A stretch of 64,000 nt of DNA. Origin: an uncultured Bacteroidales bacterium. Its GTDB lineage: Bacteria; Bacteroidota; Bacteroidia; Bacteroidales; FEN-979. Of the stretch, positions 2,959-18,745 are shown in pieces. The notes below the pieces were generated by a model. The model saw only the letters and a list, made by a program, of their open reading frames with translations, searched no databases and had not been told where the DNA came from. Numbering within the stretch: the stretch's first letter is position 1; each line of letters starts with the position of its first letter. The DNA is taken from positions 1-64,000 of the forward strand of contig CAIQUS010000084.1 in the NCBI GenBank assembly GCA_903875045.1. Direction: 5' to 3'. A program made the translations under genes and the position numbers.

Positions 2959-2972
2959 AGGGAACCCTTTCC

Positions 2973-4169
2973 TTAAAAAAACTTCATCGTCACCTCTTTT
3001 AAAAACTTCTCTTCCAGCGTCCGGGTAATCCGGTGCACAACGGTGCGGCGGAGTTCAAGTTCAACAGGCATCGTCGGATCCTGATGGGCTGTGTTGATAT
3101 TCGTTCCCACCAGGAAATGGATCTCATCGCTTTCGAGAAGATATTTTACAATTTCATCGGCAGGTCCCTTTCCAAGCTGGTAGTTGTTACTGTATTTCTT
3201 CAGCAATTCGCTTACCTTGGAAAGTGTCAGAATTCCTTCGGTGATCAGGTCAACACCATTCATATAAGACACCGGAGGCAGTTCAGCATCAAGCATCACC
3301 TCGCTGTCGGTGATCTCCTCTCCCCATTCACGTGCTACCATGTCGCCTGTTGTTGCCCCGCAAATAATCTTTTTTCCGTCGAACTGTTTCAGCAGCCCGG
3401 TAAACATGGCATCATTTGCCGGATCCTGCGGCGGACCCGAGAAAACCATCAATTTTCTTGGCTCCCGAAAATAGATCACGCCGCAACTGATATCATCGAG
3501 TGGATGAAAATTATCATTCTGGTTTGCTTTGTTGATCACCCTCGTACCCAACTTTACAGCGGAAATGTCACCCTCCTCATGGATCGATTCTTCGACAAAT
3601 TTCTGAAGATTTTCCAGGCCCCAGCCCATCTGGTATTTGTCACTGCCCAATCCTGATTGGGTTACTCCGTCGGAACAAAAAACAATCCGGTCTTCCTTTT
3701 GGGGTTTAAATGTTGTGGTGAGCACCTCCCGGCCGGCATTCTTTTCGCCATCCAGCACAACACAATTCCAATTCGGTTCATGTAATCTGGCTCCACGCAA
3801 TACAAGCGTTTTCGGATTTTCATATTCCAGTATACGCACCTCCCCTTCCACATCTATTTCAACAATGGTAAAAGTAGAGTAATTCATGTTTTTTACACTG
3901 TCAACCGGCAGTGTTTTCATGATAATCTCCGTACTTTTTTCAACACTTTTATGTTCTCGGGTAAAATTGACTGCAAGGGTGGCTGTAAGCGTGGCCAGAA
4001 TATTTGCCTTGATCCCATGACCCATGCCATCGGACAATACAACAATGATTCGCCCCTCTTCCTTGACACGCCTGGAAATGAAAACATCTCCGCAAACCCG
4101 CGCTTCACCATGGCATTTTTGCTGACAATTAACCTCTATGTAGAATTTTTCATCCATGGAATCATCCAT
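2973..4169 (-). CDS. SpoIIE/PP2C-family serine/threonine phosphatase associated with sensory hydrogenase
   Basis: A 398-residue cytosolic phosphatase of the SpoIIE (PP2C) family. Metal-binding aspartates are visible in VVLSDGMGHG (about residues 44-53), FCSDGVTQSG (about 165-174) and DDISCGVIYF (about 224-233). The last 160 residues form a separate domain that I cannot assign; it includes CGATTGDMVAREWG. It lies downstream of, and is co-oriented with, the PAS-containing sensory hydrogenase at 4277-6145, an arrangement known from HydS-type clusters, so it probably relays the hydrogen signal by dephosphorylating a protein. No anti-sigma antagonist or kinase substrate is visible in the window. 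The start could also be the ATG four codons in (4157). Confidence 0.85.
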   Translation of the reverse strand: MDDSMDEKFYIEVNCQQKCHGEARVCGDVFISRRVKEEGRIIVVLSDGMGHGIKANILATLTATLAVNFTREHKSVEKSTEIIMKTLPVDSVKNMNYSTFTIVEIDVEGEVRILEYENPKTLVLRGARLHEPNWNCVVLDGEKNAGREVLTTTFKPQKEDRIVFCSDGVTQSGLGSDKYQMGWGLENLQKFVEESIHEEGDISAVKLGTRVINKANQNDNFHPLDDISCGVIYFREPRKLMVFSGPPQDPANDAMFTGLLKQFDGKKIICGATTGDMVAREWGEEITDSEVMLDAELPPVSYMNGVDLITEGILTLSKVSELLKKYSNNYQLGKGPADEIVKYLLESDEIHFLVGTNINTAHQDPTMPVELELRRTVVHRITRTLEEKFLKEVTMKFF

Positions 4170-4177
4170 TTACATTT

Positions 4178-4275
4178 ATGATTTGAGATTTACGATTTAC
4201 GATCGGCAATAGCATGGTTTTCATACACAAAAGTTTATTGCCGCCAAATCGTAAATCGTAAATCGTAAATCCCAA
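4178..4275. repeat. Long imperfect inverted repeat built from AATCGTA-type heptamers
   Basis: The gap between the phosphatase and sensory hydrogenase genes is almost entirely one hairpin. The left arm (4178-4210) carries two GATTTAC-type heptamers followed by CGGCAAT. The right arm (4234-4275) carries the complement with one extra heptamer. The loop is about 23 bases. The two flanking genes are co-directional, so this is not a convergent terminator. It could attenuate or process the shared transcript, or be a dispersed intergenic repeat. Confidence 0.75.
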
Positions 4276-4276
4276 A

Positions 4277-6145
4277 TTATTTTTTCGTGGTATCTTTATA
4301 TGAGTCTATCACCGAATTAAGCATCTGTTCCGTTTTTGAGGCTCCTTCACCAAGAAGGTAGGCGATTTTTTGTACCATGTCGAAATTTTCATCAATCACT
4401 TCAGTAAGACGTGTGATGATTTGCTCTTTTCGTACTTCGGGAACGTACATGTCACGTAAAATTCCGCCTGCATATTTATGGCTTCGTATCGGAAAGATCG
4501 AAACACCCAGTTTAATCTCACCAAACTGGACATCCTTGTTTTCAATTGTTTCATCGGAGGTGAGCACATAAGAAAACATTTTATAGAAATGCACAGGCAG
4601 CAGGGATTTCAGGTCAGCCCCCACCAGGCCAGGGATCACTTCATCGATCATGGCAGCCTCTTCGCCGATAATGCGGATAAAGGCTTTGTTGCTTTGGTAT
4701 ATTTTCAGATCTTCATCAACAATCACAACGCCTGATAATAAATTTTGCAGCATCGTCGAAATGATTTCAGCCGACTCCTTTTGCGATTCATGTTCATGTC
4801 TGGCCTGTTCTTCCGACTCTTTCAAAGCGGCTTTGGTTTTAGCCAGGTTATCATTCGTAGTTCGCAGGGTCTGAATATATTCCTGACGATTATGCCCGCT
4901 GAACACATGACACATCTCAGTGGTGGCAAGACCTTGTGAAATGGCGATGGCAAGGTCGCGACAATTTGTGTAACCACATGATTCGCAACCAACGTCATTG
5001 TTAATGTGGCCTTCTCGATTGATCATTTTAAGAACTTCTTCAATCTTATCTTCATCGGGAACCGGAAGGCGCTGGTCATCAGGTTCGAACTGCCTTGAAA
5101 GATCGAGGTTTTCATAATAGCCGATCTCTTTTATCCAGGTTTCTTTATCAAAAGTTGTTAAACGCTTGTTTGCATAATCAGTTACCAGCGACATTCTTAA
5201 AAATTTTTCACCCCCGGGTGATGTTCCTGGTCCCATCAAACATCCTTCATCATAAAACAGGTTGAAATTTCTTCTGATAAGTTCAATGCGCGAGTCGAAT
5301 TCCTTAACGGCATGAACCATGTTATTCCGTCCCTCAGTCGTAATTACACTGCCTGTCAGAAGGTTTTCGCTGATATCAACAGCCTGGAGAAAACCATGGC
5401 TGATGGGGTACAGAGATCCCTTGAACCCGAGGGGTGCATCAAATTCGGAGAACTCAACCTGGCTCTCGCGGATATTAAACTCATGAAATAACTGGCGTAA
5501 CTCGACAAACGTCAGTACAGCATCAATTTTAGCATCCCCTTCAAATTTTAACGCTTCATCCTTGGTAGCGATGCATGGCCCGATAAAGACTACTTTAATA
5601 TCCTGTCCGTAGTTTTGCCTGATAATCTTTGCCGTGGCAACCATTGGCGATACGATCGGAGCAAGGTTGGTGATTAAATCAGGATAGTATTTTTCAATGT
5701 AAGAGACGACCGAAGGGCAATTTGACGTAAAATGATATTTCCCCTTAAAGTTTTCAAAAAGCTCCTTGTATTTCATGGCTACCAGGTCGACACCGAAAGA
5801 TGCCTCACTGACAATCGAAAAACCAAGCTGCCTGATCATCTCTACAAATTTCCGGTAATCGGTAATATCATGGAATTCCCCTGAAATGGTCGGGTCGCAA
5901 ATGGCTGCTACCTTTTCGCGCGATGCAAGAATTGTCCGGGTTGCTTCGATAGAACTCCTGTATGAAATAGAATTGGGGGCACAGGCCCGGTAACAACTGC
6001 CACATCCGATGCAACGCTCAGGAATGATGGAGGGAAATTCAGTGACAGTGTCAACCTTTATTGCTTTTACCGGACAAATGCGGATACAGGAATAGCATTT
6101 AATGCAGGTTTCATGGGAGATATGGAACAGAGGTCCTTTAGGCAT
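4277..6145 (-). CDS. hydS: Sensory [FeFe]-hydrogenase with PAS domain (HydS-like)
   Basis: A 622-residue putative H2 sensor. Domains in order: two [4Fe-4S] clusters (CIKCYSC from residue 14; CIGCGSC from 45), an H-cluster domain (about 75-320), a second Fe-S domain with C387, C390, C395 and C412, a coiled coil (about 425-465) and a PAS domain (about 465-575). The H-cluster motifs are altered: L1 reads TSNCPS (140-145), with Asn in place of the proton-relay Cys; L2 reads IGPC (C191), without the usual Met; L3 reads YDEGCLMGPG, where the first of two expected Cys ligands is Tyr298 and only C302 remains. This points to sensing rather than turnover. The PP2C gene downstream is the likely output. 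The gene is divergent from the NuoE-NuoF-HydA operon. Confidence 0.88.
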   Translation of the reverse strand: MPKGPLFHISHETCIKCYSCIRICPVKAIKVDTVTEFPSIIPERCIGCGSCYRACAPNSISYRSSIEATRTILASREKVAAICDPTISGEFHDITDYRKFVEMIRQLGFSIVSEASFGVDLVAMKYKELFENFKGKYHFTSNCPSVVSYIEKYYPDLITNLAPIVSPMVATAKIIRQNYGQDIKVVFIGPCIATKDEALKFEGDAKIDAVLTFVELRQLFHEFNIRESQVEFSEFDAPLGFKGSLYPISHGFLQAVDISENLLTGSVITTEGRNNMVHAVKEFDSRIELIRRNFNLFYDEGCLMGPGTSPGGEKFLRMSLVTDYANKRLTTFDKETWIKEIGYYENLDLSRQFEPDDQRLPVPDEDKIEEVLKMINREGHINNDVGCESCGYTNCRDLAIAISQGLATTEMCHVFSGHNRQEYIQTLRTTNDNLAKTKAALKESEEQARHEHESQKESAEIISTMLQNLLSGVVIVDEDLKIYQSNKAFIRIIGEEAAMIDEVIPGLVGADLKSLLPVHFYKMFSYVLTSDETIENKDVQFGEIKLGVSIFPIRSHKYAGGILRDMYVPEVRKEQIITRLTEVIDENFDMVQKIAYLLGEGASKTEQMLNSVIDSYKDTTKK

Positions 6146-6251
6146 ATTCTGGTTATTATCGTCAAATTTATGAATATCTCCTGGTTAAAACAGCATCGAA
6201 TAAAAAAAAATCAAAAAATCGGCATTCCGTATATTTGTTTAATTATTCACA

Positions 6252-6269
6252 TTGATAAATATTTCACAA
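6252..6269. promoter_or_regulatory. Putative Rex operator
   Basis: TTGATAAATATTTCACAA matches the Rex half-site palindrome TTGTGAANNNNTTCACAA at 12 of 14 fixed positions. It lies in the divergent region between the sensory hydrogenase (minus) and the NuoE-NuoF-HydA operon (plus), about 30 bases upstream of the -7 box at 6299. The rex gene is at 14179. Rex binds when NAD+ is high and releases when NADH is high, so this would let NADH build-up de-repress an NADH-linked hydrogenase. Confidence 0.6.
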
Positions 6270-6298
6270 TTTATCTTTCTTATTTAAGTTTAATTTGT

Positions 6299-6306
6299 TA
6301 TTTTTG
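6299..6306 (+). promoter_or_regulatory. Promoter -7 element of the NuoE-NuoF-HydA operon
   Basis: TATTTTTG fits the Bacteroidota -7 consensus TAnnTTTG and lies 29 bases before the chosen ATG at 6335. No good TTTG -33 box is seen. On the opposite strand TAAATTTG (complement of 6163-6170) may serve the divergent sensory hydrogenase gene, 18 bases from its start. Confidence 0.5.
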
Positions 6307-6334
6307 TACGGCTGATATTGAATTTTATCCCATC

Positions 6335-6802
6335 ATGACAAAAGAGAATCTCGAACTTTTACTTTCAAATTATCCGGCAAATAAAAAGGATGGATTGCTC
6401 CCGATATTGCAGGATATTCAACAGCAACATGGTTATCTAACTGATGAATTACTCGTGAAGGTTGGCAAGTATCTGAATTTACCTGCCAATAAAGTTTATG
6501 GTGTGGCAACATTTTACGACCAGTTCAGGTTCCACCCCCAGGGATCGTATCACATCAGGATTTGTCGGGGCACAGCATGTCATTTATTTGGCACTTCAAC
6601 CTACCTTGGCCAACTGGAAGACCAGTTAAACGTCAAAGCTGGATATACAAGCAAAGACAGGAAATTCAGTCTCGAAATCTCAAACTGCATGGGTGCCTGT
6701 GAATCTGCTCCCGTTGTTCAGGTCAATGAAAATTTTTACACCCATGTCACAGCGGCTGATTTATCCAGGATCATCCGTTCCCTAAAAGAAAAAACATCAT
6801 AA
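6335..6802 (+). CDS. hydC: NuoE-like [2Fe-2S] subunit of NADH-linked [FeFe]-hydrogenase
   Basis: A 155-residue NuoE-type subunit. The cluster ligands are C77 and C82 (CRGTAC) and C118 and C122 (CMGAC), with the family segment KVYGVATFYDQF. The frame is open further upstream to 6113, but that stretch overlaps the divergent sensory gene and carries the promoter; the ATG at 6335 restores normal family length and follows the -7 box at 6299 by a short leader. It is separated by one base from the NuoF-like gene. It works in the cytoplasm as the electron-transfer subunit between the flavin subunit and the hydrogenase. It is a second, clearly diverged copy of the gene at 1326-1805. Confidence 0.92.
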   Translation: MTKENLELLLSNYPANKKDGLLPILQDIQQQHGYLTDELLVKVGKYLNLPANKVYGVATFYDQFRFHPQGSYHIRICRGTACHLFGTSTYLGQLEDQLNVKAGYTSKDRKFSLEISNCMGACESAPVVQVNENFYTHVTAADLSRIIRSLKEKTS

Positions 6803-6803
6803 G

Positions 6804-8753
6804 ATGGCCTCTCTGACCTCCATTGAATCCAAAGAATTCCTGGTCGAAAAGATCCTGAAAAATCATTCAAACATATTTGATAAGGCAACTGGTGAGCAAC
6901 TTTCTCTTATCAGGCGTGCCAAAGTGCTCCAACCGGTAGTTTACATTGGCATGGGCACTTGTGGCATCGTCGCGGGTGCCGATAAAACAATGGCCGCTGT
7001 TAAAAAATACCTGTCAGATAACCAGATTGCCGGAGAGGTTGTCAGAGTCGGATGTTTAGGCTTATGTTCAGCCGAACCCCTGCTTGATGTCCAATTGCCG
7101 GGAAAGGCCCGGTTGTCATTTCATCATGCCACCGAAGATAGGGTTGAAGACCTGCTCAACTCGGTATTTCATCGTACACTGGTGCAAGAAACAGTTCTTG
7201 GGCAGTATAAAACCGAATCACTGGAAGAATGGCCAAACATACCCTTTATCGGGCAATTACCCTATTTTGCCAACCAGCACAGGATTATCCTTCGTAACTC
7301 AGGAATCATTTCACCTTACCTGATAGATGATTATTTAGCCCAGGGTGGGTATAAATCACTATATAAAACAGTCTTGAATTATACCTCAGAAAAAGTATGT
7401 GAAATCGTTGACCAAAGCGAGCTACGTGGTCGCGGGGGAGGTGGTTTTCCTACAGGCAGGAAATGGCTGGTTACCCTGAGTGCAGGCAGTGATCAAAAAT
7501 ATCTTATCTGCAATGCAGATGAGAGCGATCCCGGAGCCTTTATGAACAGGGCAATTATTGAAGGTGACCCTCATCGTGTTCTCGAGGGAATTGCCATTGC
7601 AGCGTATGCAATTGGAGCAAATCATGCTTATATTTATATCAGGTCGGACTATGTGCAATCCCTTTCAATTCTTGAAAATGCCATTAAACAGGCCAAAGAA
7701 TATGGATTCATCGGCGAAAATATCTTCAGCAGCGGGTTCAACCTGAATATGTATATCCGTCGTGGAGCCGGAGCCTTTGTTTGCGGGGAGGAAACCGCCC
7801 TGATCGCCAGCATTGAAGGGCGCCGGGGTATGCCTCAGGCGAAACCGCCCTATCCTGCAGAAAAAGGATTATTCGGACATCCAACCATTGTAAATAACAT
7901 CGAAACGCTGGCCAATATTCCTACCATTCTGGAGCATGGCCCCTCCTGGTTTAAATCGGTCGGAACCAAGGATAGCAGGGGAACAAAACTCTTCAGTGTG
8001 GCTGGTAAGTCAGTCTGCACTGGCTTTATCGAAATACCAATGGGTATTGCTATCTCGGAAATAGTTCAATCAATTGCCGGTGGTGTGAAAAATGGGAAAA
8101 ATCTCAAGGCTGTTCAACTTGGAGGGCCTTCCGGGGTTTGCATCCCACTTCAGGATATGGAAACACCCATTTGCTTTGAATCATTGCAGGACATTGAATC
8201 GCCCATCGGATTGGGGGGATTAATCGTACTTGATGAAGATACCTGCATGGTGAACCTGGCAAAGTATTTTATGAAATTTCTCCAGAAAGAGAGCTGCGGC
8301 AAGTGTATCCCATGCCGTGAAGGAACCCGTCGAATGCTACAGATTCTTGAAGAGGTAACCCATCGTCCAAAGGAAGAGAGTACACATGAGACGCTTGAAC
8401 GGTTCAAAGGAGTTGTCGAACTGGAAAGTCTTGCAGAGGTTATCCGGGATACTTCCCTGTGCGGTTTGGGACGGAATGCGCCAAATCCCGTATTGTCCTC
8501 TTTGAAATGGTTCAGGGATGAATTCGAGGAACATATTTTTGACAGGAAATGCCAGGCAGGGGTGTGTCATGACCTGAGAACTTTTTTTATTGAGGCCAAC
8601 TTGTGCAACGGTTGCAATATTTGTCAGATAAAATGCCCGGAGAATGCAATTATCGGGTCCCCTAAATTGCCGCACTTTATCATCGAATCGAAATGTACCG
8701 GATGCGGAATCTGTTTTGATAGCTGCAAGTTCAATGCTATATACTTCAAATAA
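6804..8753 (+). CDS. hydB: NuoF-like flavin/Fe-S subunit of NADH-linked [FeFe]-hydrogenase
   Basis: A 649-residue NAD(H)-binding flavoprotein subunit, the site of NADH oxidation or reduction and, in characterised HydABC enzymes, of electron bifurcation. Domains: an N-terminal [2Fe-2S]-like domain (GMGTCG at 49-54; GCLGLC at 83-88), the FMN/NADH core with GRGGGGFPTG (209-218) and GAGAFVCGEETALI (321-334), the NuoF [4Fe-4S] site (C498, C501, C504, C553), and a C-terminal two-cluster ferredoxin (CNGCNIC at 601 and CTGCGIC at 631). The added ferredoxin and N-terminal domain are typical of hydrogenase HydB rather than complex I NuoF. One base separates it from hydC and eight from hydA, a tight operon. 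Bifurcation is inferred from domain architecture. Confidence 0.93.
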   Translation: MASLTSIESKEFLVEKILKNHSNIFDKATGEQLSLIRRAKVLQPVVYIGMGTCGIVAGADKTMAAVKKYLSDNQIAGEVVRVGCLGLCSAEPLLDVQLPGKARLSFHHATEDRVEDLLNSVFHRTLVQETVLGQYKTESLEEWPNIPFIGQLPYFANQHRIILRNSGIISPYLIDDYLAQGGYKSLYKTVLNYTSEKVCEIVDQSELRGRGGGGFPTGRKWLVTLSAGSDQKYLICNADESDPGAFMNRAIIEGDPHRVLEGIAIAAYAIGANHAYIYIRSDYVQSLSILENAIKQAKEYGFIGENIFSSGFNLNMYIRRGAGAFVCGEETALIASIEGRRGMPQAKPPYPAEKGLFGHPTIVNNIETLANIPTILEHGPSWFKSVGTKDSRGTKLFSVAGKSVCTGFIEIPMGIAISEIVQSIAGGVKNGKNLKAVQLGGPSGVCIPLQDMETPICFESLQDIESPIGLGGLIVLDEDTCMVNLAKYFMKFLQKESCGKCIPCREGTRRMLQILEEVTHRPKEESTHETLERFKGVVELESLAEVIRDTSLCGLGRNAPNPVLSSLKWFRDEFEEHIFDRKCQAGVCHDLRTFFIEANLCNGCNICQIKCPENAIIGSPKLPHFIIESKCTGCGICFDSCKFNAIYFK

Positions 8754-8761
8754 ACGGAAAA

Positions 8762-10483
8762 ATGCAATTTGATATTGAGATAAACAACCAGCCGGTATTG
8801 GCAAAACGAGGGGAAACTATCAAAAATGTGCTTGACCGGATCGGAATCCATGTGCCTACCCTGTGTTACATGAATGGTTTTACCCCTACAGGAGGATGCA
8901 GATTGTGTGTGGTGGAAGTTGATGGTATCTCTGAACTTGTACCCTCCTGTTCACATCCCGTGAATGAATGGATGAAAATTAAAACTCATTCCCCAAGAGT
9001 ACTGAAAGCCAGAAAGGTACTTGTTGAACTGCTTTTAGCCGGGCACCCTGATGACTGCCTCTACTGTGGGCGTAACGGAAACTGCGAATTGCAGAATCTG
9101 GCTTTTGAAATGAATATCCGTGAACGAAAATATCATGGTAAAAGGCAAAACATACAGATAGATAAAGCATGTGCGTCAATTGTCCGGGATCCGGCAAAAT
9201 GTGTTCTTTGTGGCCGGTGCATACGCGTTTGTGACGAAGTGATAGGCGTTTCGGCCATTGATGTGGTTGGCCGCGGCAGCGAAAGCAAAATCGGAACGAC
9301 TTACAACAAAGGCTTAAACACTCATACATGTGTCAAGTGTGGCCAATGTATCATGGTTTGTCCTACTGGGGCACTAGCCGAAAAAACAAGCATCCAGAAG
9401 GTGATTGATGCCTTAAATAATCCGGAACTATTCCCGGTTATTCAGTTCTCCCCTACTGTCCCGGCATCCATCGGCGAAGATTTCAACATCAAGGCCAGCA
9501 AAGATATTCTTAACCTGTTGAGGGCAGGCTTGAAAAAAATTGGGTTCCGTCAGGTGTTTGATACTTCCATGGCTGCAGATCTGACCATTATGGAGGAAGC
9601 CGCTGATTTTATCGGAAGGATTGCAAACCATCAGAACCTTCCGATGCTGACCTCCTGCTGCCCGTCATGGGTAAAGTATATAGAATCAGCAAAACCACAG
9701 CTCCTTCCAAAGTTATCAACAACAGCCTCACCCCAGCAGATGATGGGCAGGCTCATTAAAAACTATATAACCACTTCGGCTGGTCAAAAAACTGAGAGTG
9801 TTTTTGTGGTTTCTGTGATGCCTTGTACCGCCATGAAATATGATGCTGACACTGATGTTATGAAAGATGGAATTTCCCGTAACGTTGATGCGGTACTTAC
9901 AACAAGGGAACTCGTTGCCCTGATAAAGCTGCTTGGCATCGATTTTAACAACCTTGACCCTGAACCAGCTGATACACACTATGGATTAAGAAGTTCTTCG
10001 GGTAATCTGTTTGGCATTTCCGGCGGACATCTGGAAGGATTGATTCGGACGATTCATTATATGTTGACGGGAATGGATATGAATTCATTGAAAATAAATG
10101 AATTACGGGGATTAAAAGGCAGAAAGGAAACGCGGATTAAAATCGGTAAAGTAATATTTAATGTTGCAGCCGTTAGTGGTTTATCAAATGCCAGGGCATT
10201 GATTGATGATATTGAGGCCGGCAGAGAGAATTTTGGCATCATTGAGGTGATGGCCTGCCCCCATGGTTGTATCAATGGAGGGGGGCAAAGGCTGAATTCT
10301 GATGAAAAAAATCTGAAGTCGCGCATGAAAGCATTATATGATGTTGATGAGGAAGAAATGATCAAGGTTGCACATAAAAGCCCTGTAATCATAGATTTGT
10401 ATGATAAATTCCTTGAAAAACCAGGCAATGGGCGAAACAGGGAATTGCTCCACGTAAACAGGTCACTAAAGGAGGGTTTATGA
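8762..10483 (+). CDS. hydA: [FeFe]-hydrogenase catalytic subunit, complete
   Basis: A full-length 573-residue group A hydrogenase. Domains: [2Fe-2S] plant-type ferredoxin (C35, C46, C49, C63), His-Cys [4Fe-4S] (H95, C99, C102, C108), two [4Fe-4S] clusters (C147-C157; C190-C200), then the H-cluster domain with L1 TSCCPSW (297-303), L2 MPC (353-355) and L3 ACPHGC (498-503). All ligands and the proton-relay Cys (first Cys of L1) are intact, so it should be an active H2 enzyme. It has the usual length of the clostridial CpI type, although gene order (NuoE, NuoF, HydA) points to a trimeric NADH/ferredoxin-dependent enzyme. Its stop codon overlaps the start of the sensory kinase (ATGA), coupling enzyme and sensor expression. 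Confidence 0.95.
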   Translation: MQFDIEINNQPVLAKRGETIKNVLDRIGIHVPTLCYMNGFTPTGGCRLCVVEVDGISELVPSCSHPVNEWMKIKTHSPRVLKARKVLVELLLAGHPDDCLYCGRNGNCELQNLAFEMNIRERKYHGKRQNIQIDKACASIVRDPAKCVLCGRCIRVCDEVIGVSAIDVVGRGSESKIGTTYNKGLNTHTCVKCGQCIMVCPTGALAEKTSIQKVIDALNNPELFPVIQFSPTVPASIGEDFNIKASKDILNLLRAGLKKIGFRQVFDTSMAADLTIMEEAADFIGRIANHQNLPMLTSCCPSWVKYIESAKPQLLPKLSTTASPQQMMGRLIKNYITTSAGQKTESVFVVSVMPCTAMKYDADTDVMKDGISRNVDAVLTTRELVALIKLLGIDFNNLDPEPADTHYGLRSSSGNLFGISGGHLEGLIRTIHYMLTGMDMNSLKINELRGLKGRKETRIKIGKVIFNVAAVSGLSNARALIDDIEAGRENFGIIEVMACPHGCINGGGQRLNSDEKNLKSRMKALYDVDEEEMIKVAHKSPVIIDLYDKFLEKPGNGRNRELLHVNRSLKEGL

Positions 10484-12462
10484 GCCATTCATTTCACCGG
10501 CAACTCGTTTTTACCATCAAGGACAGATGCAGGGTTTGTTTTACCTGCGTTCGTGAATGTCCTGTTAAAGCCATCAAAATAATAAACGGGCAGGCGGAAG
10601 TTATCAACGACCGCTGTATCGGATGCGGCAATTGTGTAAGAGTATGCAGCCAGGGTGCAAAGATTCCGCTACGGTCGGTTGATGCGGTAAATGAACTTCT
10701 TAAATCTGACCATAAAATTGCGGCCTGCATTGCCCCCAGTTTCCCGGCAGAATTTGCAGAATTTCATGATCATAAAACTTTGGTTGGAATGATCAGAAAA
10801 CTTGGGTTTGATTTTGTTACAGAGGTTTCCTTTGGGGCAGATATCGTAGCCCGTGAATATGAAAAAATGATCAATGGGAGTGATTATGAGGGTGATATCT
10901 CCTCCGACTGTCCTGCGATAGTATATTTCATTCGTCATTACCATCCCGACATGGTACCCTATCTTGCACCCATTGCATCACCCATGGTTGCCATGACAAG
11001 GGTTTTGAAAAAAAAGCATGGGCAGGAGCTCAAGGTCGTTTTCATCGGTCCCTGTTTTGCCAAAAAGGCAGAAACGACCGAAGTCGATGAAGTACTTACT
11101 TTTCGGGAACTTCGGGAAATGCTCGACAATCTGAACATTCGTCCTGAAAATTCGGAACTTTCTGATTTTGACCCTCCCCAGGCCGGTAAAGGCGCGATTT
11201 TTCCCATCAGTCATGGGTTGTACTATACCGCCAACAACAAGGAAGCCATCCCTGAAGAGAGAGTCATCATTGCAGAAGGACAGGCCAATTATAAGGAAGC
11301 TATCAGGGAATTTGAAGAGGGCTACATACGGAAAAAACATCTGATGTTGCTTTGTTGCGAAGGGTGCATCATGGGACCGGGAACATCCCCCGGAGGAAAA
11401 AGATTTGCCCGCAGCAATGCAGTTGGAGAATATGTTACCCAAAAGCTTCAGCAAATTGATCAGCAGTCATGGAATCAGAACATGGAGGAGTTTAGTATCC
11501 TGGATTTTTCGCAAAGTTTCACCCCGGAAGACCGCCGACTGGCACCGCCAGGCAACGAAGCTGTGCTGAATGTGCTGCAATCGATGGGGAAATTCTCTCC
11601 CAAGGATCATTTAAATTGCGGAGCCTGTGGATATGATACGTGCGTTGATCATGCTGGCGCCATCGTAAACGGGCTGGCTGAGACCGAAATGTGCCTCCCC
11701 TATTCCATTGAAAAATTGCACGACTCCATCAGTAACCTGAATGTCTCCAATGAAAAACTAGCACGTGCAAGGGCTGCGCTCAAACAATCGGAAAAGCTGG
11801 CCCACATGGGGCAGTTGTCGGCGGGAATCGCCCATGAACTAAACAATCCATTGGGTGTGATCACCATGTACAGCAACATTCTCATGGATGAAGCCCAGGA
11901 AGGGGCTGGTGTACGCGACGACCTTAAACTGATTGTTGAACAGGCCGAACGATGTAAAAAAATAGTTAGCGGATTGCTCAATTTTGCCCGTAAGAATCAG
12001 GTGAACCTGTCCGAAACAGATGTCGTCAAATTCATGCAACATAGCCTAAACTCTATTGTCAAGCCGGAAAATATCATTGTTTCTTTCAAATCTGAAATTG
12101 AGGATCCGATTGCAAAACTGGATATCGACCAGATGATGCAGGTTTTAACAAATCTTGAAAAAAATGCAATTGAAGCAATGCCCGATGGTGGCCATCTCCG
12201 TGTTGGAGTAGAAGGCGATACCGAAGAAATAACCTTTGTTGTGGCAGATACGGGCAGCGGCATTCAAAAAGAAAACATGGACAAACTTTTCACTCCCTTC
12301 TTTACGACCAAAGAAATTGGAAAGGGAACAGGTTTGGGACTTGCCCTGATCTATGGGATTGTGAAAATGCACAAAGGAAAAATACATGTTGACTCCAATG
12401 CAGATCCAACCCAGCGACCAACCGGAACCACTTTCAGAATTACGGTACCACGTGGAAAATAA
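10480..12462 (+). CDS. Sensory [FeFe]-hydrogenase fused to histidine kinase
   Basis: A 660-residue soluble protein combining a hydrogenase-like sensor with a kinase. Domains: two [4Fe-4S] sites (CRVCFTC from 17; CIGCGNC from 46), H-cluster domain (about 75-310), an extra Fe-S domain (C380, C383, C388, C405), a short coiled coil, HisKA with phospho-accepting H452 in GIAHELNNPLG, and HATPase_c (N562 region, DTGSGI, GKGTGLGLAL). L1 is SSDCPA (141-146), so Asp143 replaces the proton-relay Cys. L2 is GPCFAKK (C192). L3 is CCEGCIMGPG, which keeps both cubane ligands (C292, C296), unlike the other sensor. It overlaps hydA by four bases. It presumably senses H2 through an H-cluster and autophosphorylates; partners are likely the receivers at 12604 and 13055. 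Confidence 0.88.
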   Translation: MSHSFHRQLVFTIKDRCRVCFTCVRECPVKAIKIINGQAEVINDRCIGCGNCVRVCSQGAKIPLRSVDAVNELLKSDHKIAACIAPSFPAEFAEFHDHKTLVGMIRKLGFDFVTEVSFGADIVAREYEKMINGSDYEGDISSDCPAIVYFIRHYHPDMVPYLAPIASPMVAMTRVLKKKHGQELKVVFIGPCFAKKAETTEVDEVLTFRELREMLDNLNIRPENSELSDFDPPQAGKGAIFPISHGLYYTANNKEAIPEERVIIAEGQANYKEAIREFEEGYIRKKHLMLLCCEGCIMGPGTSPGGKRFARSNAVGEYVTQKLQQIDQQSWNQNMEEFSILDFSQSFTPEDRRLAPPGNEAVLNVLQSMGKFSPKDHLNCGACGYDTCVDHAGAIVNGLAETEMCLPYSIEKLHDSISNLNVSNEKLARARAALKQSEKLAHMGQLSAGIAHELNNPLGVITMYSNILMDEAQEGAGVRDDLKLIVEQAERCKKIVSGLLNFARKNQVNLSETDVVKFMQHSLNSIVKPENIIVSFKSEIEDPIAKLDIDQMMQVLTNLEKNAIEAMPDGGHLRVGVEGDTEEITFVVADTGSGIQKENMDKLFTPFFTTKEIGKGTGLGLALIYGIVKMHKGKIHVDSNADPTQRPTGTTFRITVPRGK

Positions 12463-12484
12463 TTAACGACGATGCAAACACTTT

Positions 12485-12556
12485 AAACAATGTAAGCAAT
12501 GTGAGCAATGCAAACAATGCAAACAATGCAAACAATGCAAACAATGCAAGCAATAA
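12485..12556. repeat. 9-bp tandem repeat, eight units
   Basis: Eight head-to-tail units of AAACAATGC; units 4 to 7 are identical and the outer ones differ by one to three bases. It is followed by a looser run of TAACCCTT-type units (about 12567-12600) reaching the next start codon. It occupies the gap between the sensory kinase and the response regulator and is non-coding as far as I can see. Confidence 0.9.
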
Positions 12557-12603
12557 CCCCCATTCATTAACCCTTAACACTTTTAACCCTTAACCCTTTT
12601 TTC

Positions 12604-13008
12604 ATGAAACCGTCTAATTATACAATTTTACTTGTTGACGACGATCAGGATTATCTTTTTCAACTACAGAATAAAATTCAGAATCTCGGGTACAAAACAA
12701 TCACGGCTGAAGGCCAGAAAGAAGCTGAAGTATTGTTGGAAAAAACCAAACCGGATTTGGCGATTTTTGACCTCATGATGGAAAATGAAGACAGTGGGTT
12801 CATCCTATGTTATAAAATGAAAAAGAAATACCCGGATGTTCCCATTATCATCGCAACCGGTGTTACCGCTGAAACGGGAATCAGTTTCGATATCAATGAT
12901 GAAAATAACCGCAAATGGATAAAGGCCGATCGTTTTCTTGATAAAGGGATAAGAACCGAACGTTTGAGAGAAGAAATTGAGAAATTACTGTTAAAAAATA
13001 ACAAGTAA
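12604..13008 (+). CDS. Stand-alone response regulator receiver (CheY-like)
   Basis: A 134-residue single-domain receiver. The acidic pocket is DDD at 12-14, the phospho-acceptor is D56 in IFDLMM, and the conserved Thr and Lys appear as T85 and K114. There is no DNA-binding or enzymatic output domain, so it probably acts by protein contact or as a phosphorelay intermediate. It lies directly downstream of the hydrogenase-type histidine kinase, separated by the repeat-filled gap, and upstream of the receiver-kinase hybrid, so it is likely part of the same H2 signalling path. Confidence 0.85.
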   Translation: MKPSNYTILLVDDDQDYLFQLQNKIQNLGYKTITAEGQKEAEVLLEKTKPDLAIFDLMMENEDSGFILCYKMKKKYPDVPIIIATGVTAETGISFDINDENNRKWIKADRFLDKGIRTERLREEIEKLLLKNNK

Positions 13009-13054
13009 TGCTATGTTAACGGATTTTGGCTTATTTTTGAGGTGAAATAAATTT

Positions 13055-14188
13055 ATGTCTACATTAAAAATTCTTATCGTTGATGATGAGCCGGGTATCC
13101 GGAGCGGAGTTTCACGGATTTTGCGAAATTTCCGGGTAGATTATCCATTCATGGATGAAGCATTTGATTTTGAAGTCATTGAAGCCCCAACCGGGGAAGC
13201 AGGAATCGAGATCATTGACGCCAATCCACCGGATATCTTATTGTTAGACAATAAATTACCAGGTATTCAGGGTATTGAAGTTCTTGAGTATATCAAGAAA
13301 AAACAGAAAAGCATCATCGTCGTCATGATTACCTCCTATGCTTCACTTGAATTGGCTGTAAAGGCTACGAGTGACGGAGCTTATGATTTCATTCCCAAAC
13401 CTTTCACCCCGCAGGAATTAAAATCATCCATCGAGAATATCACCAAGCGTGTGTTTCTCAAAAAGATGACCAACCAACTTCAGGATTCAGGAAAGCAGAT
13501 AAGATTTACTTTTTTATCAGTCCTCTCCCATGAACTCAAAGCCCCCCTGAATGCTATTGAAGGTTATCTCAAAATGATAAGGGAGCGTCAGAATGGACCC
13601 AAACTCGAGGATTACGACGTAATGATTGACCGGTCCCTCGACCGGATCAAAGGGATGCGGAGCCTGATACTGGATATGCTTGACCTCACCCGTGTTGAAT
13701 CGGGAAAAGCCAAAAGAAACATCACCGGAGTTGATCTTTCCGTGGTTGCCCGGACGGCAATGGACACTATGCGTCCCTATGCCATTCAGCGGGATGTGAA
13801 ACTCAACCTCCATCACAATGGGACTGTAATACTGCAGGCTGATGCCGAAGAAATGGAAATAATTTTCAATAATTTGATTTCCAATGCAATCAAGTATAAT
13901 AAAGATGGCGGCACGGTCGATTTCACCATCGAGCAGCAGGATAATTGTATGGGGATCACTGTCGTTGATACCGGAATTGGTATGACCCCGGTTGAAATCG
14001 AAAAAATCTTCGATGATTTTGTACGGATTAAGAATGATAAAACCAAAAACATAGCCGGAAGCGGACTGGGACTTTCCATCGTAAAAAAGCTGATTGACAA
14101 CTACGCAGGAAAGATCGAAGTACAAAGTGTTCCGGACCAGGGCAGTACATTTAATGTTAGACTTCCAATTGACAAACCATGTTTATAA
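13055..14188 (+). CDS. Receiver-histidine kinase hybrid
   Basis: A 377-residue soluble two-component protein with the receiver first. The receiver (about 1-130) has D10, D11 and phospho-acceptor D65 in LLLDNKLPG, with K115 in PKPF. HisKA carries H159 in LSHELKAPLN, followed by HATPase_c with NNLISNAIKYN, DTGIGM and GSGLGLSIV. No membrane segment or periplasmic sensor is present, so input must come from phosphorylation of its receiver, plausibly from the H2-sensing kinase upstream. A -7-like TATTTTTG at 13032-13039 may give it its own promoter. Its 3' end overlaps rex by 10 bases, tying its expression to the redox repressor. Confidence 0.88.
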   Translation: MSTLKILIVDDEPGIRSGVSRILRNFRVDYPFMDEAFDFEVIEAPTGEAGIEIIDANPPDILLLDNKLPGIQGIEVLEYIKKKQKSIIVVMITSYASLELAVKATSDGAYDFIPKPFTPQELKSSIENITKRVFLKKMTNQLQDSGKQIRFTFLSVLSHELKAPLNAIEGYLKMIRERQNGPKLEDYDVMIDRSLDRIKGMRSLILDMLDLTRVESGKAKRNITGVDLSVVARTAMDTMRPYAIQRDVKLNLHHNGTVILQADAEEMEIIFNNLISNAIKYNKDGGTVDFTIEQQDNCMGITVVDTGIGMTPVEIEKIFDDFVRIKNDKTKNIAGSGLGLSIVKKLIDNYAGKIEVQSVPDQGSTFNVRLPIDKPCL

Positions 14189-14820
14189 AAAACTTACCCC
14201 ATAAAACCGTAGAGCGGTTAAGTCAATACCGCCGTGCATTGCTTATGATCCTGTCAAAGGAAAAAACACATGTTTTTTCTCATGAAATCGCACAGATGCT
14301 TCACATTACACCTGTACAGGTAAGACGTGACCTGATGCTGATCGGATATTCTGGAAACCTGCGAAAAGGCTATGACATCAAGGAGCTCATCGAATTGATC
14401 GGAAAAATCATCGATTCCGACCGCGGACAGCGGGTAGCAGTCGTTGGCCTTGGCAATCTCGGGAAAGCAATCATAAGCTATTTTAAAGGAAAACGGTCAA
14501 AACTTGCCATCATTGCCGCTTTTGATATTAACCCGGAAAAGATCAACCGGGTTTACGATGGCGTTGCCTGCCACCATATCAGCCAGATGGCAGATATCGT
14601 TAAACAGAACAACATTTCAATCGGTATCATTGCTGTTTCTTCTGAACAGGCACCAGAAATCGCTGAAACAATGGTGATTGCCGGAATAAAGGGAATCCTT
14701 AATTTCACACCCAAACCATTAAACGTCCCTCCTTTTGTCTATCTTGAAGAGTATGATATGATCACCTCGCTCGAAAAGGTCGCATTCTTCGCGAAAAAAA
14801 ATGATGAACGTTTTAAGTAG
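14179..14820 (+). CDS. rex: Redox-sensing transcriptional repressor Rex
   Basis: A 213-residue Rex repressor, which senses the NADH/NAD+ ratio. The N-terminal winged helix includes ITPVQVRRDLMLIGYSG, close to the family recognition-helix region, followed by a Rossmann fold with VVGLGNLGKAI as the dinucleotide-binding loop. Length is normal. It overlaps the receiver-kinase gene by 10 bases and ends the hydrogen island; ribF follows 10 bases later. A candidate operator is at 6252-6269 in front of the NADH-linked hydrogenase, which is a known type of Rex target in fermentative bacteria. Confidence 0.93.
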   Translation: MFIKNLPHKTVERLSQYRRALLMILSKEKTHVFSHEIAQMLHITPVQVRRDLMLIGYSGNLRKGYDIKELIELIGKIIDSDRGQRVAVVGLGNLGKAIISYFKGKRSKLAIIAAFDINPEKINRVYDGVACHHISQMADIVKQNNISIGIIAVSSEQAPEIAETMVIAGIKGILNFTPKPLNVPPFVYLEEYDMITSLEKVAFFAKKNDERFK

Positions 14821-14830
14821 AAAATACTAA

Positions 14831-15760
14831 GTGAAAATATTTTATGATTTCGACCATCTTGGTGAAATCCGCAACGCGGTTATCACCACAGGGTCCTTTG
14901 ATGGCGTCCATATCGGTCATAAGGTAATTCTCCAGCGACTTAAAAAACTTGCTGCTGAAATTGGTGGAGAAACTGTTCTGATCACGTTTCATCCACACCC
15001 GCGTAAAGTACTGTACCCCGACACTTTAGGTAAGGAACTTTTTCTGATCAATTCACAGCGTGAAAAAATTAACCTCCTGCAAAAAGCAGGGCTCGACAAC
15101 CTGATTATTGTAGAATTCACACTTGCTTTTTCGAAGATCACCTCCATAGATTTTGTGAAAAATATCCTGCTGAATAAATTGCATGCACGGATGATCGTTA
15201 TCGGGTTTAACCACCATTTTGGCCATAACCGCGAAGGTGATTATGGGGAGCTTCGCAAATTCGGCAGCAGCAATGGATTTGAGGTGGAAGAAATACCAGA
15301 ACAAGATATTCATAATGAGTCTGTTAGTTCAACAAAAATCAGGAAAGCTATTCAGAATGGCAGCATTCAGAAAGCGAACGCTTATCTTGATCATCAATAC
15401 ATCATGATGGGTGTGTTGTTCAATAGTAGTGAAACCCTTGAAGAGATCGGATTTCCCTGCTACAGCATGAAAATTGAGGAGGCATCAAAACTGGTGCCGC
15501 CCAATGGTGTTTATGCTGTAACCGTAACCGGGGAAGACATTTTTTCGCGCGCAATGTGCTTCATCAGAAAAAATGATGATTCTCCGCTAGATACACTTGT
15601 GGAAGTCCATCTTCTGGAGAATTATGGCAGTATTGAAGGCCAGGTGGGAACCTTGCTCTTTCACAAACGGATTCGCGAAGAACGTGTTCTTACCAGCACC
15701 GATGATTTAAAAAAGCAGCTTACCATCGACCGTAACCAGGTCGACGAACTTATTTTCTGA
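14831..15760 (+). CDS. ribF: Bifunctional riboflavin kinase/FAD synthetase
   Basis: A 309-residue RibF, which phosphorylates riboflavin to FMN and adenylates it to FAD in the cytoplasm. The N-terminal adenylyltransferase domain shows TTGSFDGVHIGHK and HPHPRKVL, and the C-terminal flavokinase domain includes PPNGVYAVTV. The start is GTG at 14831, which gives the usual N-terminus MKIFYDF. It lies 10 bases after rex and overlaps the following MBL-fold gene by one base (TGATG), so it may be in the rex transcript. FMN supply to the NuoF-like subunit is a plausible link but is not shown. Confidence 0.93.
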   Translation: MKIFYDFDHLGEIRNAVITTGSFDGVHIGHKVILQRLKKLAAEIGGETVLITFHPHPRKVLYPDTLGKELFLINSQREKINLLQKAGLDNLIIVEFTLAFSKITSIDFVKNILLNKLHARMIVIGFNHHFGHNREGDYGELRKFGSSNGFEVEEIPEQDIHNESVSSTKIRKAIQNGSIQKANAYLDHQYIMMGVLFNSSETLEEIGFPCYSMKIEEASKLVPPNGVYAVTVTGEDIFSRAMCFIRKNDDSPLDTLVEVHLLENYGSIEGQVGTLLFHKRIREERVLTSTDDLKKQLTIDRNQVDELIF

Positions 15761-16545
15761 TGACGACCAAACCCAGCGACCGGTTAAAAGTCACCTTCCT
15801 TGGAACAGGTACCTCCATCGGTGTGCCGGTAATCACCTGCGACTGTCCTGTATGCATCTCCGCTGATCAGCGGGATAAACGTATGCGGACTTCAATAATG
15901 CTCGAAATCAAAGGATTAACATTTGTGATTGATTGTGGTCCCGATTTCCGCCATCAGATGCTGCGCAAAAATGTAATGAACCTGGATGCTGTTATTTTCA
16001 CCCATGAACATCGTGATCATATTGCCGGGCTGGATGATGTCAGGGCCTTCAACTACGTTCTCAACAAGAAGATTGATATTTATGGAACCCCCCGCGTGAT
16101 GGAGGCCATCAGAATAGAATTTCCCTATATTTTCTCGGAATCACGATATTTTGGCGCACCCCAGCTTACCATTCACCCGATTGATGATCAACCATTTACC
16201 ATCATGGGAATTGAATTTATTCCTATTCAGGTAATGCACGAAAAACTCCCGGTTACCGGTTTCAGGGTTGGCGATTTTACCTATATTACTGACGCAAGTT
16301 ACATCAGCGGTCCTGAATTGATGAAAATTAAAGGATCCAGGGTAATTGTACTTAATGCCCTGCGCAATTCAAAACATGTTTCTCATTTTTCAGTTGGTGA
16401 AGCGGTAGAAATCCTGAAGGAGTTGCAACCGGAAAAAGCATTTCTTACACATCTGAGCCATTTTGTCGGACTCCATGAGGAGGTAAACAAAAAATTGCCC
16501 GATTTTATTCAATTGGCCTGGGACGGACTGGAGTTAGAGGTTTAA
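15760..16545 (+). CDS. MBL-fold metallo-hydrolase, PhnP-like (copy 1)
   Basis: A 261-residue metallo-beta-lactamase-fold hydrolase. It opens with FLGTGTSIGVPV, then a cysteine group (CDCPVC, about 27-32) like the structural zinc site of PhnP phosphodiesterases, and the catalytic motif THEHRDH (about 84-90). Later metal ligands appear as D in YITDAS and H in LTHLSH. The substrate is unknown; a cyclic phosphodiester or nucleic-acid-related ester is likely from the family. Its start codon overlaps the ribF stop. A close paralogue lies at 31315-32082. Confidence 0.85.
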   Translation: MTTKPSDRLKVTFLGTGTSIGVPVITCDCPVCISADQRDKRMRTSIMLEIKGLTFVIDCGPDFRHQMLRKNVMNLDAVIFTHEHRDHIAGLDDVRAFNYVLNKKIDIYGTPRVMEAIRIEFPYIFSESRYFGAPQLTIHPIDDQPFTIMGIEFIPIQVMHEKLPVTGFRVGDFTYITDASYISGPELMKIKGSRVIVLNALRNSKHVSHFSVGEAVEILKELQPEKAFLTHLSHFVGLHEEVNKKLPDFIQLAWDGLELEV

Positions 16546-16569
16546 TGCAGAAAACTTGATAATTTACGC

Positions 16570-17265
16570 ATGGTTGTTGATATTTTGACCTTGTTTCCGG
16601 AAATGTTCGACGGGCCCTTCAGCCATTCAATAATAAAACGTGCCCAGGAAAAAGGCCATGTGGTCATCCACTTGCACAACATCCGCGATTGGTCGGTCAA
16701 TAAGCATAAAACCGTTGATGATTATCCTTACGGCGGCGGGGCCGGTATGGTGATGATGGTTGAACCCATTGTGAAGTGTATTGAAGAATTAAAATCCAAA
16801 ACGCTTTACGATGAGGTTATCTATCTCAGTCCCGACGGGGAACTGCTGAATCAAAAAGTTGCCAACCACCTTTCTACCTGCGGGAATCTCTTAATCCTTT
16901 GCGGCCATTACAAAGGTATCGATGAACGCATTCGGACAAATTTTATCACGCGTGAGATATCTATTGGCGAATATGTGCTGTCAGGCGGCGAACTGGCTGC
17001 CATGGTGCTTACAGATGCCATTGTAAGGATTATCCCGGGAGTACTTAATGATGAAACGTCAGCCCTCTCCGATTCGTTTCAGGACAACCTGCTCTCTCCA
17101 CCGGTTTATACACGTCCTTATGACTTCAGAGGATTGAAAGTGCCCGACATCCTTCTGTCCGGAAATGACAAGGAGATTGCAAAGTGGAAATATGAGCAAT
17201 CTGTTATCCGAACGAAACAGAGGAGGCCGGGGTTATTGAATGAAGGTAGCGGTTGTATTAACTGA
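16570..17265 (+). CDS. trmD: tRNA (guanine-N1-)-methyltransferase
   Basis: A 231-residue TrmD, which methylates G37 of tRNAs using S-adenosylmethionine and so prevents frameshifting. Conserved parts are [10 protein letters not shown] at the N-terminus, [10 protein letters not shown], the trefoil-knot segment [13 protein letters not shown], and [15 protein letters not shown]. Length matches the family. It is 24 bases after the MBL gene and in the same direction. It is not flanked here by rplS or rimM, the usual partners in other phyla. Confidence 0.95.
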
Positions 17266-17300
17266 TATGAATTTGTAGCTTACATCATAGGCTACTCAAC

Positions 17301-18302: not shown

Positions 18303-18416
18303 ATCTGTTAAAATTTTATTTGTTCAATCTGTTTATTATGAGATAAAATTTATTGCGTAAAATTAATCTATAATTACTGCAATGCACAAATCCTTTAATG
18401 AAAAATGCAATCGGAA

Positions 18417-18583: not shown

Positions 18584-18745
18584 TCCATGACAATTACACC
18601 GGCAATCCATTATCATAAAAAAAACAAATACCATTGTGAAAAAGCCACAATCCAATTCATTTACATAGCTAAAAAGATTTTAAATTTACCTGTAATTTCA
18701 TCCTTCGGCGCTCATATATAGTATTATTTTACAAAAATCATCACC

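Follow-up and report, generated by a model that had tools for sequence, protein, structure and literature searches.

A group C1-type [FeFe]-hydrogenase/histidine kinase fusion of the Bacteroidales with aspartate at the proton-relay position

The nearest described counterpart of the protein considered here, an [FeFe]-hydrogenase H-domain fused to a histidine kinase, is group C1 of HydDB, and one C1 gene is from Petrimonas, a member of the Bacteroidales. HydDB characterizes the group, in which a group C H-domain is linked to a histidine kinase as it is here, as "histidine kinase-linked, putative", says that it may sense H2, and lists its role as undetermined (PMC5037454). The Petrimonas mucosa gene, ING2E5A_0849, is close to hnd hydrogenase genes (PMC7768429), much as ours is near hydABC. 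The accessible parts of these two descriptions say nothing of which residue stands at the relay, of a REC pair next to the gene, or of a CCEGC loop. An H-domain with an HATPase_C/kinase domain has also been reported from Hydrogenedentota C1 (PMC11406978), but there the H-cluster motifs are hardly recognizable, whereas the fusion here keeps four Cys. In the partly accessible literature covered by our search, we found no C1 kinase for which H2 binding, kinase activity, or phosphotransfer had been measured.

Two sensory hydrogenases from outside C1 are informative for comparison. TmHydS of Thermotoga maritima, from group C (PMC10055695), shares with the fusion the N-terminal clusters, the H-domain, the C-terminal cluster, the replacement of Met353 by Gly, and the loss of the relay Cys, but it has Ala131 at the relay, is followed by a PAS domain, and in the accessible text no kinase is mentioned. 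The relay residues named in that source are Cys at 17%, Ala at about 43%, Pro and Ser at about 10% each, and others, with Asp not among the names in the text available. TamHydS of Thermoanaerobacter mathranii, from group D (PMC8163306, PMC10407848, PMC13104023), is like the fusion in having no PAS domain and in its Cx2Cx4Cx16C cluster, a C-terminal Cys spacing reported for HydS enzymes (PMC8163306). Its gene lies upstream of a trimeric bifurcating hydrogenase and is flanked by a gene for a histidine-kinase-like ATPase; unlike the fusion, it has Ala137 at the relay, Met353 changed to Ser, and its kinase as a separate gene. Asp at the relay position is found in CaHydA C298D, CpI C299D, and CrHydA1 C169D (PMC3485046, PMC6226526, PMC9563086), but these are engineered group A enzymes in which the rest of the proton path is intact.

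In the window, by which we mean the whole 64,000-nt stretch of contig CAIQUS010000084.1 analyzed here, the fusion is one open reading frame of 660 aa on the plus strand (10480..12462), the strand of all features below unless stated. Its Pfam domains all score above the family cut-off. The N-terminus has a ferredoxin-type domain (10516..10659; Fer4_10/Fer4) with C17, C20, C23, and C27 followed by C46, C49, C52, and C56, all eight unchanged in an alignment of 53 kinase rows. The H-domain occupies residues 79-300 (10714..11379; Fe_hyd_lg_C PF02906, 151 bits), and a C-terminal FeS motif, Cx2Cx4Cx16C (C380, C383, C388, C405; 11617..11694), coincides with a match to FeS PF04060 at residues 378-407. 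After that come a HisKA dimerization/phosphoacceptor domain at residues 443-506 (11806..11997; 51 bits), whose H452 is unchanged in the same 53 rows, and HATPase_c at residues 548-658 (12121..12453; 86 bits) with an N box, G1 (D590-x-G-x-G), and G2 (G616-T-G-L-G). The cluster Cys, except C292, and the kinase H, N, G1, and G2 residues are invariant over these 53 kinases, which reach down to 40% identity. A Pfam search up to E = 0.001 gives no PAS match, and HisKA/HATPase occupy the PAS place. The AlphaFold model matches CpI 4xdc with Z = 36.6 over 346 residues at an rmsd of 2.9, the CpI C299D structures 6glz and 8pvm are also among its fold matches, and the linker at 423-455 has pLDDT below 50. 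No hydrophobic segment was found (the top 19-residue Kyte-Doolittle mean is 1.25), which is consistent with a soluble protein. The initial annotation, a single soluble chain with all the parts of an H2 sensor and a transmitter, agrees with this predicted domain set.

To place the protein among the hydrogenase groups, we note that it has what marks the H-domain superfamily, Fe_hyd_lg_C together with four H-cluster Cys, and also the C-terminal Cx2Cx4Cx16C of the sensory groups C/M2f and D/M2e. The group A mark is absent, since Asp143 stands in place of the relay Cys of TSCCPxW and the Glu279/Ser319 proton path is missing. The group D/M2e mark, Met353 changed to Ser or Thr, is absent as well, the residue being Gly190, and Gly is found there in 82/82 Bacteroidales and 25/25 homologs from other classes. 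By its architecture, and by a tree whose rows were labeled by motif, the fusion fits HydDB group C1, so the kind of protein would be one already known.

Genome contigs were covered by one scan, from which the best 80 of 253 matches were taken; these are nearly all labeled Bacteroidetes, Bacteroidales, or member groups, with one labeled Spirochaetia (L054) and one "uncultured bacterium" (L036). The first set holds C1 open reading frames of 641-729 aa having a GTGLG-type box and an H-box, a filter that left out a stop-interrupted copy (L007/L088; 541 aa, with Asp), a window fragment, and L052 (with Asp). An early 96-row set contains some genome regions more than once. The second set has 44 loci, 40 of them picked with a preference for low identity, of which two are C3-type, and 4 best-match loci (L177-L180); 3 of its 42 kinase open reading frames repeat the first set.

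Asp143 (codon 10906..10908) occupies the site of the proton-relay Cys (C299 in CpI), as the initial annotation had it: the alignment puts ISSDCPAIV over FTSCCPAWV of a solved HydA chain, with D143 on the relay Cys. Asp is present in 82/82 of the first Bacteroidales set, and of the 42 kinases of the second set, picked mostly for low identity, 34 carry Asp, 5 carry Ser, and 3 carry Asn. The 121 distinct Bacteroidales kinases come to 113 Asp, 5 Ser, and 3 Asn, with no Ala, Pro, or Cys, which rules out a sequencing error or a one-off, and the members that carry Asp extend down to about 49% identity in the H-domain part. Among 25 homologs that sit in the same cassette but come from other classes of the phylum, 14 have Pro, 8 have Ala, and 3 have Ser. 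A single change divides the Asp rows from other C1 rows on a tree that is without the Ser/Asn Bacteroidales rows. That Asp is the usual relay state of the Bacteroidales clade is new here. Our search, which reached part of the literature, found no account of a natural sensory hydrogenase with Asp at its relay, a weak negative.

The catalytic hydA of the window has its relay Cys intact; for HydA, relay counts cover 72 of 76 cassettes with hydA, the remainder being too short for alignment. The other H-cluster ligands can be followed in the same alignments. C144 (10909..10911; CpI C300) and C192 (11053..11055; CpI C355) are cubane ligands, and C296 (11365..11367; CpI C503) is the bridging ligand, by position and conservation. 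The counterpart of CpI C499 falls in the pair C292-C293 (11353..11358), where alignment and conservation make C293 the likelier cubane ligand. HMMER pairs the first L3 Cys of a HydA (8a6t domain 3) with C293 rather than with C292, in a weak stretch of 5.7 bits. C144, C192, C293, and C296 are Cys in all 121 Bacteroidales kinases, while C292 is kept in 117, the other 4 having Ser, Ala, or Thr; in other classes, position 292 is Phe and 293 is Cys in 25/25. Hence the ligand set is likely C144, C192, C293, and C296, with a loop that lacks one residue of the CxxxC length. C292 as ligand would restore the CxxxC spacing and is the less likely of the two; it had been named with C144, C192, and C296, which are present and kept, as the fourth cubane ligand, and is probably the wrong member of the pair. 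Homologs of HydE, HydF, and HydG are in the genome, each above the family cut-off, which makes an H-cluster in the fusion plausible.

It had also been suggested that an acidic relay could allow slow turnover or tune H2 affinity. CpI Glu279 and Ser319 are without conserved counterparts, there being no Glu at the 279 position and Ala163 standing for Ser319, so slow turnover by the acidic relay is possible and unproven. The 25/25 homologs with Pro, Ala, or Ser indicate that an acidic relay is unnecessary for the function of the family, and with the eight Bacteroidales Ser/Asn members they argue that Asp is not essential. As stated, the turnover proposal is not supported. In the laboratory, relay Cys has been changed to Asp in CaI, CpI, CpII, CrHydA1, and CbA5H. 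Asp has chemical significance at this site: in CaHydA it is given as the sole relay replacement that keeps efficient turnover (PMC3485046), and the carboxylate of CpI C299D forms a bond to the bridgehead amine (PMC6226526). Group A Cys-to-Asp variants are listed as retaining 0.02-4% of wild-type H2 oxidation and 10-58% of H2 evolution (PMC9563086 Table 3), losses that point to a weaker H2 response rather than a higher affinity. CaI C298D is described as largely Hox under H2 (Morra 2016, cited in PMC9563086), and CrHydA1 C169D and CpI C299D as having reduced-state mixtures like wild type (PMC6226526), so that published work disagrees on the poise that Asp gives to the cluster.

The fusion gene is part of a deeply conserved cassette with the order hydC-hydB-hydA-kinase-REC-(REC+kinase). 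In the window, hydC-hydB-hydA (6335..10483), identified by Pfam/NCBIfam and synteny, encode NuoE-like, NuoF-like, and group A catalytic subunits. Downstream of the fusion are REC1 (12604..13008), a single-domain response regulator by Pfam with phosphoacceptor D56, and REC_HK (13055..14188), in which Pfam finds a receiver (D65), HisKA (H159), and HATPase. REC1 residues D12, D13, D56, T91, and K114 are identical in 103/103 aligned rows, and REC_HK D65 and H159 are kept in 81/81, both including the query. At loci with enough flank, REC1 is found in 72/73, REC_HK in 68/68, and HydA in 75/79; the mostly low-identity second set has REC1 in 38/41 and REC_HK in 14/14; and in other classes of the phylum, REC1 is found in 25/25 and HydA directly upstream in 19/25. 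This depth of conservation makes REC1 and, as a second partner, REC_HK the likely phosphotransfer partners, and gives C1 kinases concrete candidates for that role. No DNA-binding response regulator was found in the cassette, and no RNA element reached the gathering threshold in positions 1-20000. The next gene in the run (14179..14820) is a Rex-type redox repressor by Pfam/NCBIfam, found downstream of the cassette in 30/66 loci with 3 kb of flank.

The window also has a divergent paralog, a C3-type HydS on the minus strand (4277..6145), with Asn at the relay and Tyr-Asp at the C292-C293 positions, adjoined by a SpoIIE/PP2C-type phosphatase by Pfam (2973..4169, minus strand). Among 33 C3 rows chosen by motif pattern, a choice that omitted L032 (Tyr-Arg, with C192 changed to Ser), 26 have no Cys at either 292 or 293, and none of the four cluster Cys is left in row L131, while L219 and L220, added later, keep Cys at 293.

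The explanation that we consider fairly probable as a whole is a cytoplasmic group C1-type sensor kinase, with signaling from cluster to kinase, phosphoryl transfer to REC1/REC_HK, and tuning by Asp143. What the sequences show is the domain anatomy, its conservation, the neighboring genes of the cassette, and the presence of maturase genes. We infer that the cofactor is inserted and that H2 moves the kinase switch in one direction or the other. Without a PAS domain, the change would reach the HisKA/HATPase module through the C-terminal domain with the four-Cys cluster and a helical linker, and the module would phosphorylate H452. The phosphoryl group would then go to the adjacent REC1 (D56) and/or REC_HK (D65), and the output of the phosphorelay would adjust fermentation as well as the HydABC hydrogenase. 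Asp143 would be a second-sphere residue at the bridgehead amine that sets the ease of cluster reduction by H2, most likely biasing the cluster against H2 oxidation. A laboratory substitution appears to occur in nature, in a predicted sensor, kept by most members across an order. Because Asp in the Bacteroidales is set against non-acidic residues in the same cassette elsewhere, the role of the relay in sensory hydrogenases becomes testable with natural pairs. A bolder proposal, rather unlikely to be right in full, is that the Bacteroidales kinases are natural Asp-relay H2 sensors with a short C293-x-x-C296 loop that respond only at high H2 by virtue of Asp143 and the added C292, and that the other classes, with the same REC/REC-kinase cassette, Pro/Ala/Ser143, and Phe292, are the second of two natural settings of one sensor.

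The kinase might sense H2 by binding or reduction along another path, with Asp143 a neutral lineage residue that affects neither proton transfer nor affinity. TmHydS has Ala at its relay and is less active as the A131C variant (PMC10055695), a different route via E252/E289 has been proposed for TamHydS (PMC10407848), and same-cassette homologs do have Pro, Ala, or Ser; the persistence of Asp in 113 of 121 and down to about 49% H-domain identity, with none of Ala, Pro, or Cys in 121, speaks against neutrality, which we think possible and doubtful. We judge unlikely a sensor of redox or FeS state (ferredoxin/NADH poise, O2, or CO) with no dependence on H2 turnover, its H-domain a scaffold perhaps without the [2Fe] subcluster. 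Lost proton-path residues, a relay that varies across the family, Rex behind many cassettes, and the faded Hydrogenedentota motifs (PMC11406978) speak for it, and the C3 losses tell us that H-clusters do degrade in such a setting; but the genome has HydE, HydF, and HydG, and a dead scaffold would hardly be expected to keep four Cys in 121/121 kinases. Very improbable, to our minds, is a working hydrogenase in metabolic turnover, perhaps with HydABC, whose flux the kinase domain reports. Its gene does directly follow hydA, and group A Asp variants retain some H2 evolution (PMC9563086 Table 3); its second sphere is, however, of the sensory type, with Gly190 as in TmHydS, the proton path is absent, and relays in other classes are non-acidic.

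Asp in some hydA genes led us to consider gene conversion from kinase to hydA; the motif codons differ between the two genes in each of the eight loci compared, with no sign of a recent event. Translation of the kinase had been proposed to be coupled to that of hydA through an ATGA overlap. The overlap exists, the hydA stop ending at 10483 and the kinase ATG lying at 10480, but it is exact in 17 of the 76 loci with hydA adjoining the kinase (80 loci checked), and the kinase ATG is preceded by a Shine-Dalgarno-like aggaggg of its own, so coupling does not count as conserved. At the other end of the hydrogenase genes, the start given for hydC, 6335 (MTKEN...), is a chosen one, the mechanical open reading frame running from 6113.

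The kinase is a single ORF of 660 residues at window 10480-12462 (+), in a 5.96-Mb genome that is 99.1% complete. The copies most alike, up to 88% identical among the best 80 of 253 matches, are in records from Bacteroidales/Bacteroidetes. Pfam places Fer4 motifs at residues 13-60, Fe_hyd_lg_C at 79-300, FeS PF04060 at 378-407, HisKA at 443-506, and HATPase_c at 548-658, and finds no PAS domain in the 660-residue protein. Cysteines occur at 17/20/23/27, 46/49/52/56, 83, 144, 192, 292, 293, 296, 380/383/388/405, and 492; the C380-C405 set has the spacing Cx2Cx4Cx16C, as given for sensory HydS enzymes in PMC8163306. The AlphaFold model has a mean pLDDT of 82 and a pTM of 0.61, with residues 423-455 below 50. 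Its top fold match is CbA5H at Z = 38.7, and structure alignment to CpI (4xdc) gives Z = 36.6 over 346 residues at rmsd 2.9. D143 aligns with the proton-relay Cys of a solved HydA protein. The sensor and transmitter fusion with Asp at the relay, as claimed in the initial annotation, stands, with a probable correction to one ligand.

The cubane ligands had been assigned as C144, C192, C292, and C296. Three of these hold up, as C144, C192, and C296, along with C293, are invariant in 82 Bacteroidales and 25 other-class kinases. Position 292, on the other hand, is Cys in 82/82 of the Bacteroidales kinases of the first survey but Phe in 25/25 from other classes, and in the enlarged Bacteroidales set Cys is found at 293 in 121/121 versus 117/121 at 292. 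The L3 loop reads C-C-E-G-C or F-C-E-G-C in the kinases. Other families keep a Cys-x-x-x-Cys loop: VMACPGGC and similar in group A, and CLNCEMGC in a further type, among whose members are the chemoreceptor fusion L144 and the hybrid kinase L154. The parsimonious reading of these alignments is that C293 would be the ligand, on a loop shorter by one residue, and C292 an extra. The alternative, that C292 is the ligand with the usual spacing, would mean that proteins of the other classes lack the fourth Cys; C293 is the likelier.

In the divergent C3-type HydS paralogue at window 4277-6145 (-), the relay residue is Asn and the C292-C293 positions are Tyr-Asp. Among 33 distinct C3 rows, chosen by motif, 26 have no Cys at either position (16 Tyr-Asp, 9 Tyr-Asn, 1 Tyr-Lys) and so lack the residue that normally serves as fourth cubane ligand; the other 7 have Tyr-Cys, and 2 later rows (L219, L220) keep Cys293. 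A C3-type HydS at L131 1231-3177 (-) has lost all 4 H-cluster Cys (NDPV, SPLI, YKE-F), while the adjoining C1 kinase retains them.

The first survey, which was weighted to close relatives, gave Asp at the relay in 82/82 distinct kinase fusions from Bacteroidales; in 25 fusions from other classes of the phylum the relay residue was Pro (14), Ala (8), or Ser (3). Because of that weighting, 393 genomes of the order were then searched: 190 had a match at E = 1e-40, and 40 regions, mostly of low identity, were fetched. The resulting 42 kinase ORFs, including four best-match loci, have Asp in 34, Ser in 5, and Asn in 3, for a combined 113 Asp, 5 Ser, and 3 Asn (n = 121 after dropping three duplicates). 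The five proteins with Ser all belong to one genus and were missed by a simple kinase-box pattern; Pfam finds HisKA and HATPase in both that were checked (L188, L191). An unrooted tree, built with the relay column left out and with the Ser/Asn Bacteroidales rows absent, sets 58 Asp rows apart from 24 other C1 rows by one change. Over residues 60-419, the 82 Bacteroidales kinases share just seven fixed positions whose residue is absent from the 25 others (143, 212, 265, 292, 298, 391, 414). Three of them (143, 292, 298) lie within the L1/L3 active-site loops, and 143 and 292 lose strict fixation in the set of 121.

Farther along the proton path, the HMMER alignment puts CpI Glu279 opposite a gap; counted ungapped from FGAD its counterpart would be Tyr127, with Tyr in 81/82 Bacteroidales and 25/25 other-class kinases. 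CpI Ser319 becomes Ala163 (Ala in 74/82, Ser in 3; Ala in 24/25 other-class), and Met353 becomes Gly190 throughout both sets. Hence, the first relay position is the sole acidic one among the residues compared.

The gene order is hydC-hydB-hydA, kinase, REC1 (a lone receiver domain), and REC_HK (a receiver fused to a kinase). Among the 80 loci, counting those with enough flank, we find REC1 in 72/73, REC_HK in 68/68, HydA in 75/79, HydB and HydC each in 68/71, the C3-type paralogue in 35/71, and Rex in 30/66. The second, mostly low-identity set has REC1 in 38/41 (absent from L183, L197, L213) and REC_HK in 14/14; other-class loci have REC1 in 25/25 and HydA directly upstream of the kinase in 19/25. 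Phosphoacceptors are kept in all aligned rows, D56 of REC1 in 103/103 and D65 and H159 of REC_HK in 81/81. Because the cassette is conserved, REC1 and REC_HK are our best guess for the signalling partners. Homologues with Pro, Ala, or Ser show that the cassette can do without an acidic relay. The proposed ATGA coupling of hydA to the kinase is present as an overlap in the window, but the exact overlap occurs in 17/76 loci with adjacent hydA, so coupling is not general. The maturases HydG, HydE, and HydF are all in the genome, each over its family cut-off. Between the kinase and REC1, at 12472-12554, is a nine-base tandem repeat (ATGCAAACA) of 9.2 copies.

As for mechanism, the H-cluster and the N-terminal clusters would change with H2 or redox poise, and HisKA would receive a conformational signal directly, without a PAS domain. 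Since H2 does not reduce the C-terminal cluster of TamHydS (PMC13104023), the C-terminal cluster domain more likely has a structural than a redox role. In laboratory enzymes a relay Asp bonds the bridgehead amine (PMC6226526), and with it H2 evolution remains at 10-58% and H2 oxidation at 0.02-4% of wild type (PMC9563086 Table 3). CaHydA C298D under H2 is more in Hox (Morra 2016 as cited in PMC9563086); contrary to this, CrHydA1 C169D and CpI C299D under H2 give reduced-state mixtures like wild type (PMC6226526). Should this bias against oxidation apply in the kinase too, an Asp sensor would require more H2 before switching. The initial suggestion that an acidic relay could allow slow turnover or tune H2 affinity is plausible, with the likelier direction being opposite to a gain in affinity.

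Kinase-linked C1 enzymes are already a known kind, of which the Asp clade is a variant. The HydDB table lists C1 as "Histidine kinase-linked (putative), undetermined role" (PMC5037454); Petrimonas mucosa has a C1 gene near hnd genes (PMC7768429), and Hydrogenedentota have C1 with HATPase (PMC11406978). HydDB sensory enzymes have Cys at the relay in 17%, Ala in ~43%, and Pro and Ser in ~10% each, "etc." (PMC10055695). PMC5707799 and PMC11837493 discuss genetic evidence for a role of PAS-type HydS/HfsB proteins in regulating hydrogenase or fermentation. Within the portions of the literature that our search covered, we found no description of an Asp-relay clade. The interest is in the natural comparison of Asp with Pro, Ala, and Ser, and in the conserved partners.

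Catalytic-type HydA in 72 cassettes has a relay Cys in 63, Asp in 7, Ser in 1, and Asn in 1, the Asp versions lying beside the kinase in L044, L063, L065, L068, L072, L074, and L076. In the second set, the HydA relay is non-Cys in 10/38 (Ala 2, Phe 2, Leu 3, Asn 1, Ser 2). PMC9563086 says that every catalytic enzyme has the relay Cys. The window also encodes, at 27-1265, a further [FeFe]-hydrogenase with an Fe_hyd_SSU domain and, after it, at 1326-1805, a NuoE-like protein; close to the hydrogenase region is an AbiEii-type nucleotidyltransferase toxin-like gene (2191-2958). Two fusions of the H-domain to other outputs have a relay Pro: L154 2425-6471 (-), of 1349 aa, which carries PAS, HisKA, HATPase, receivers, and Hpt; and L144 3001-5310 (+), of 770 aa with a C-terminal chemoreceptor signalling domain.
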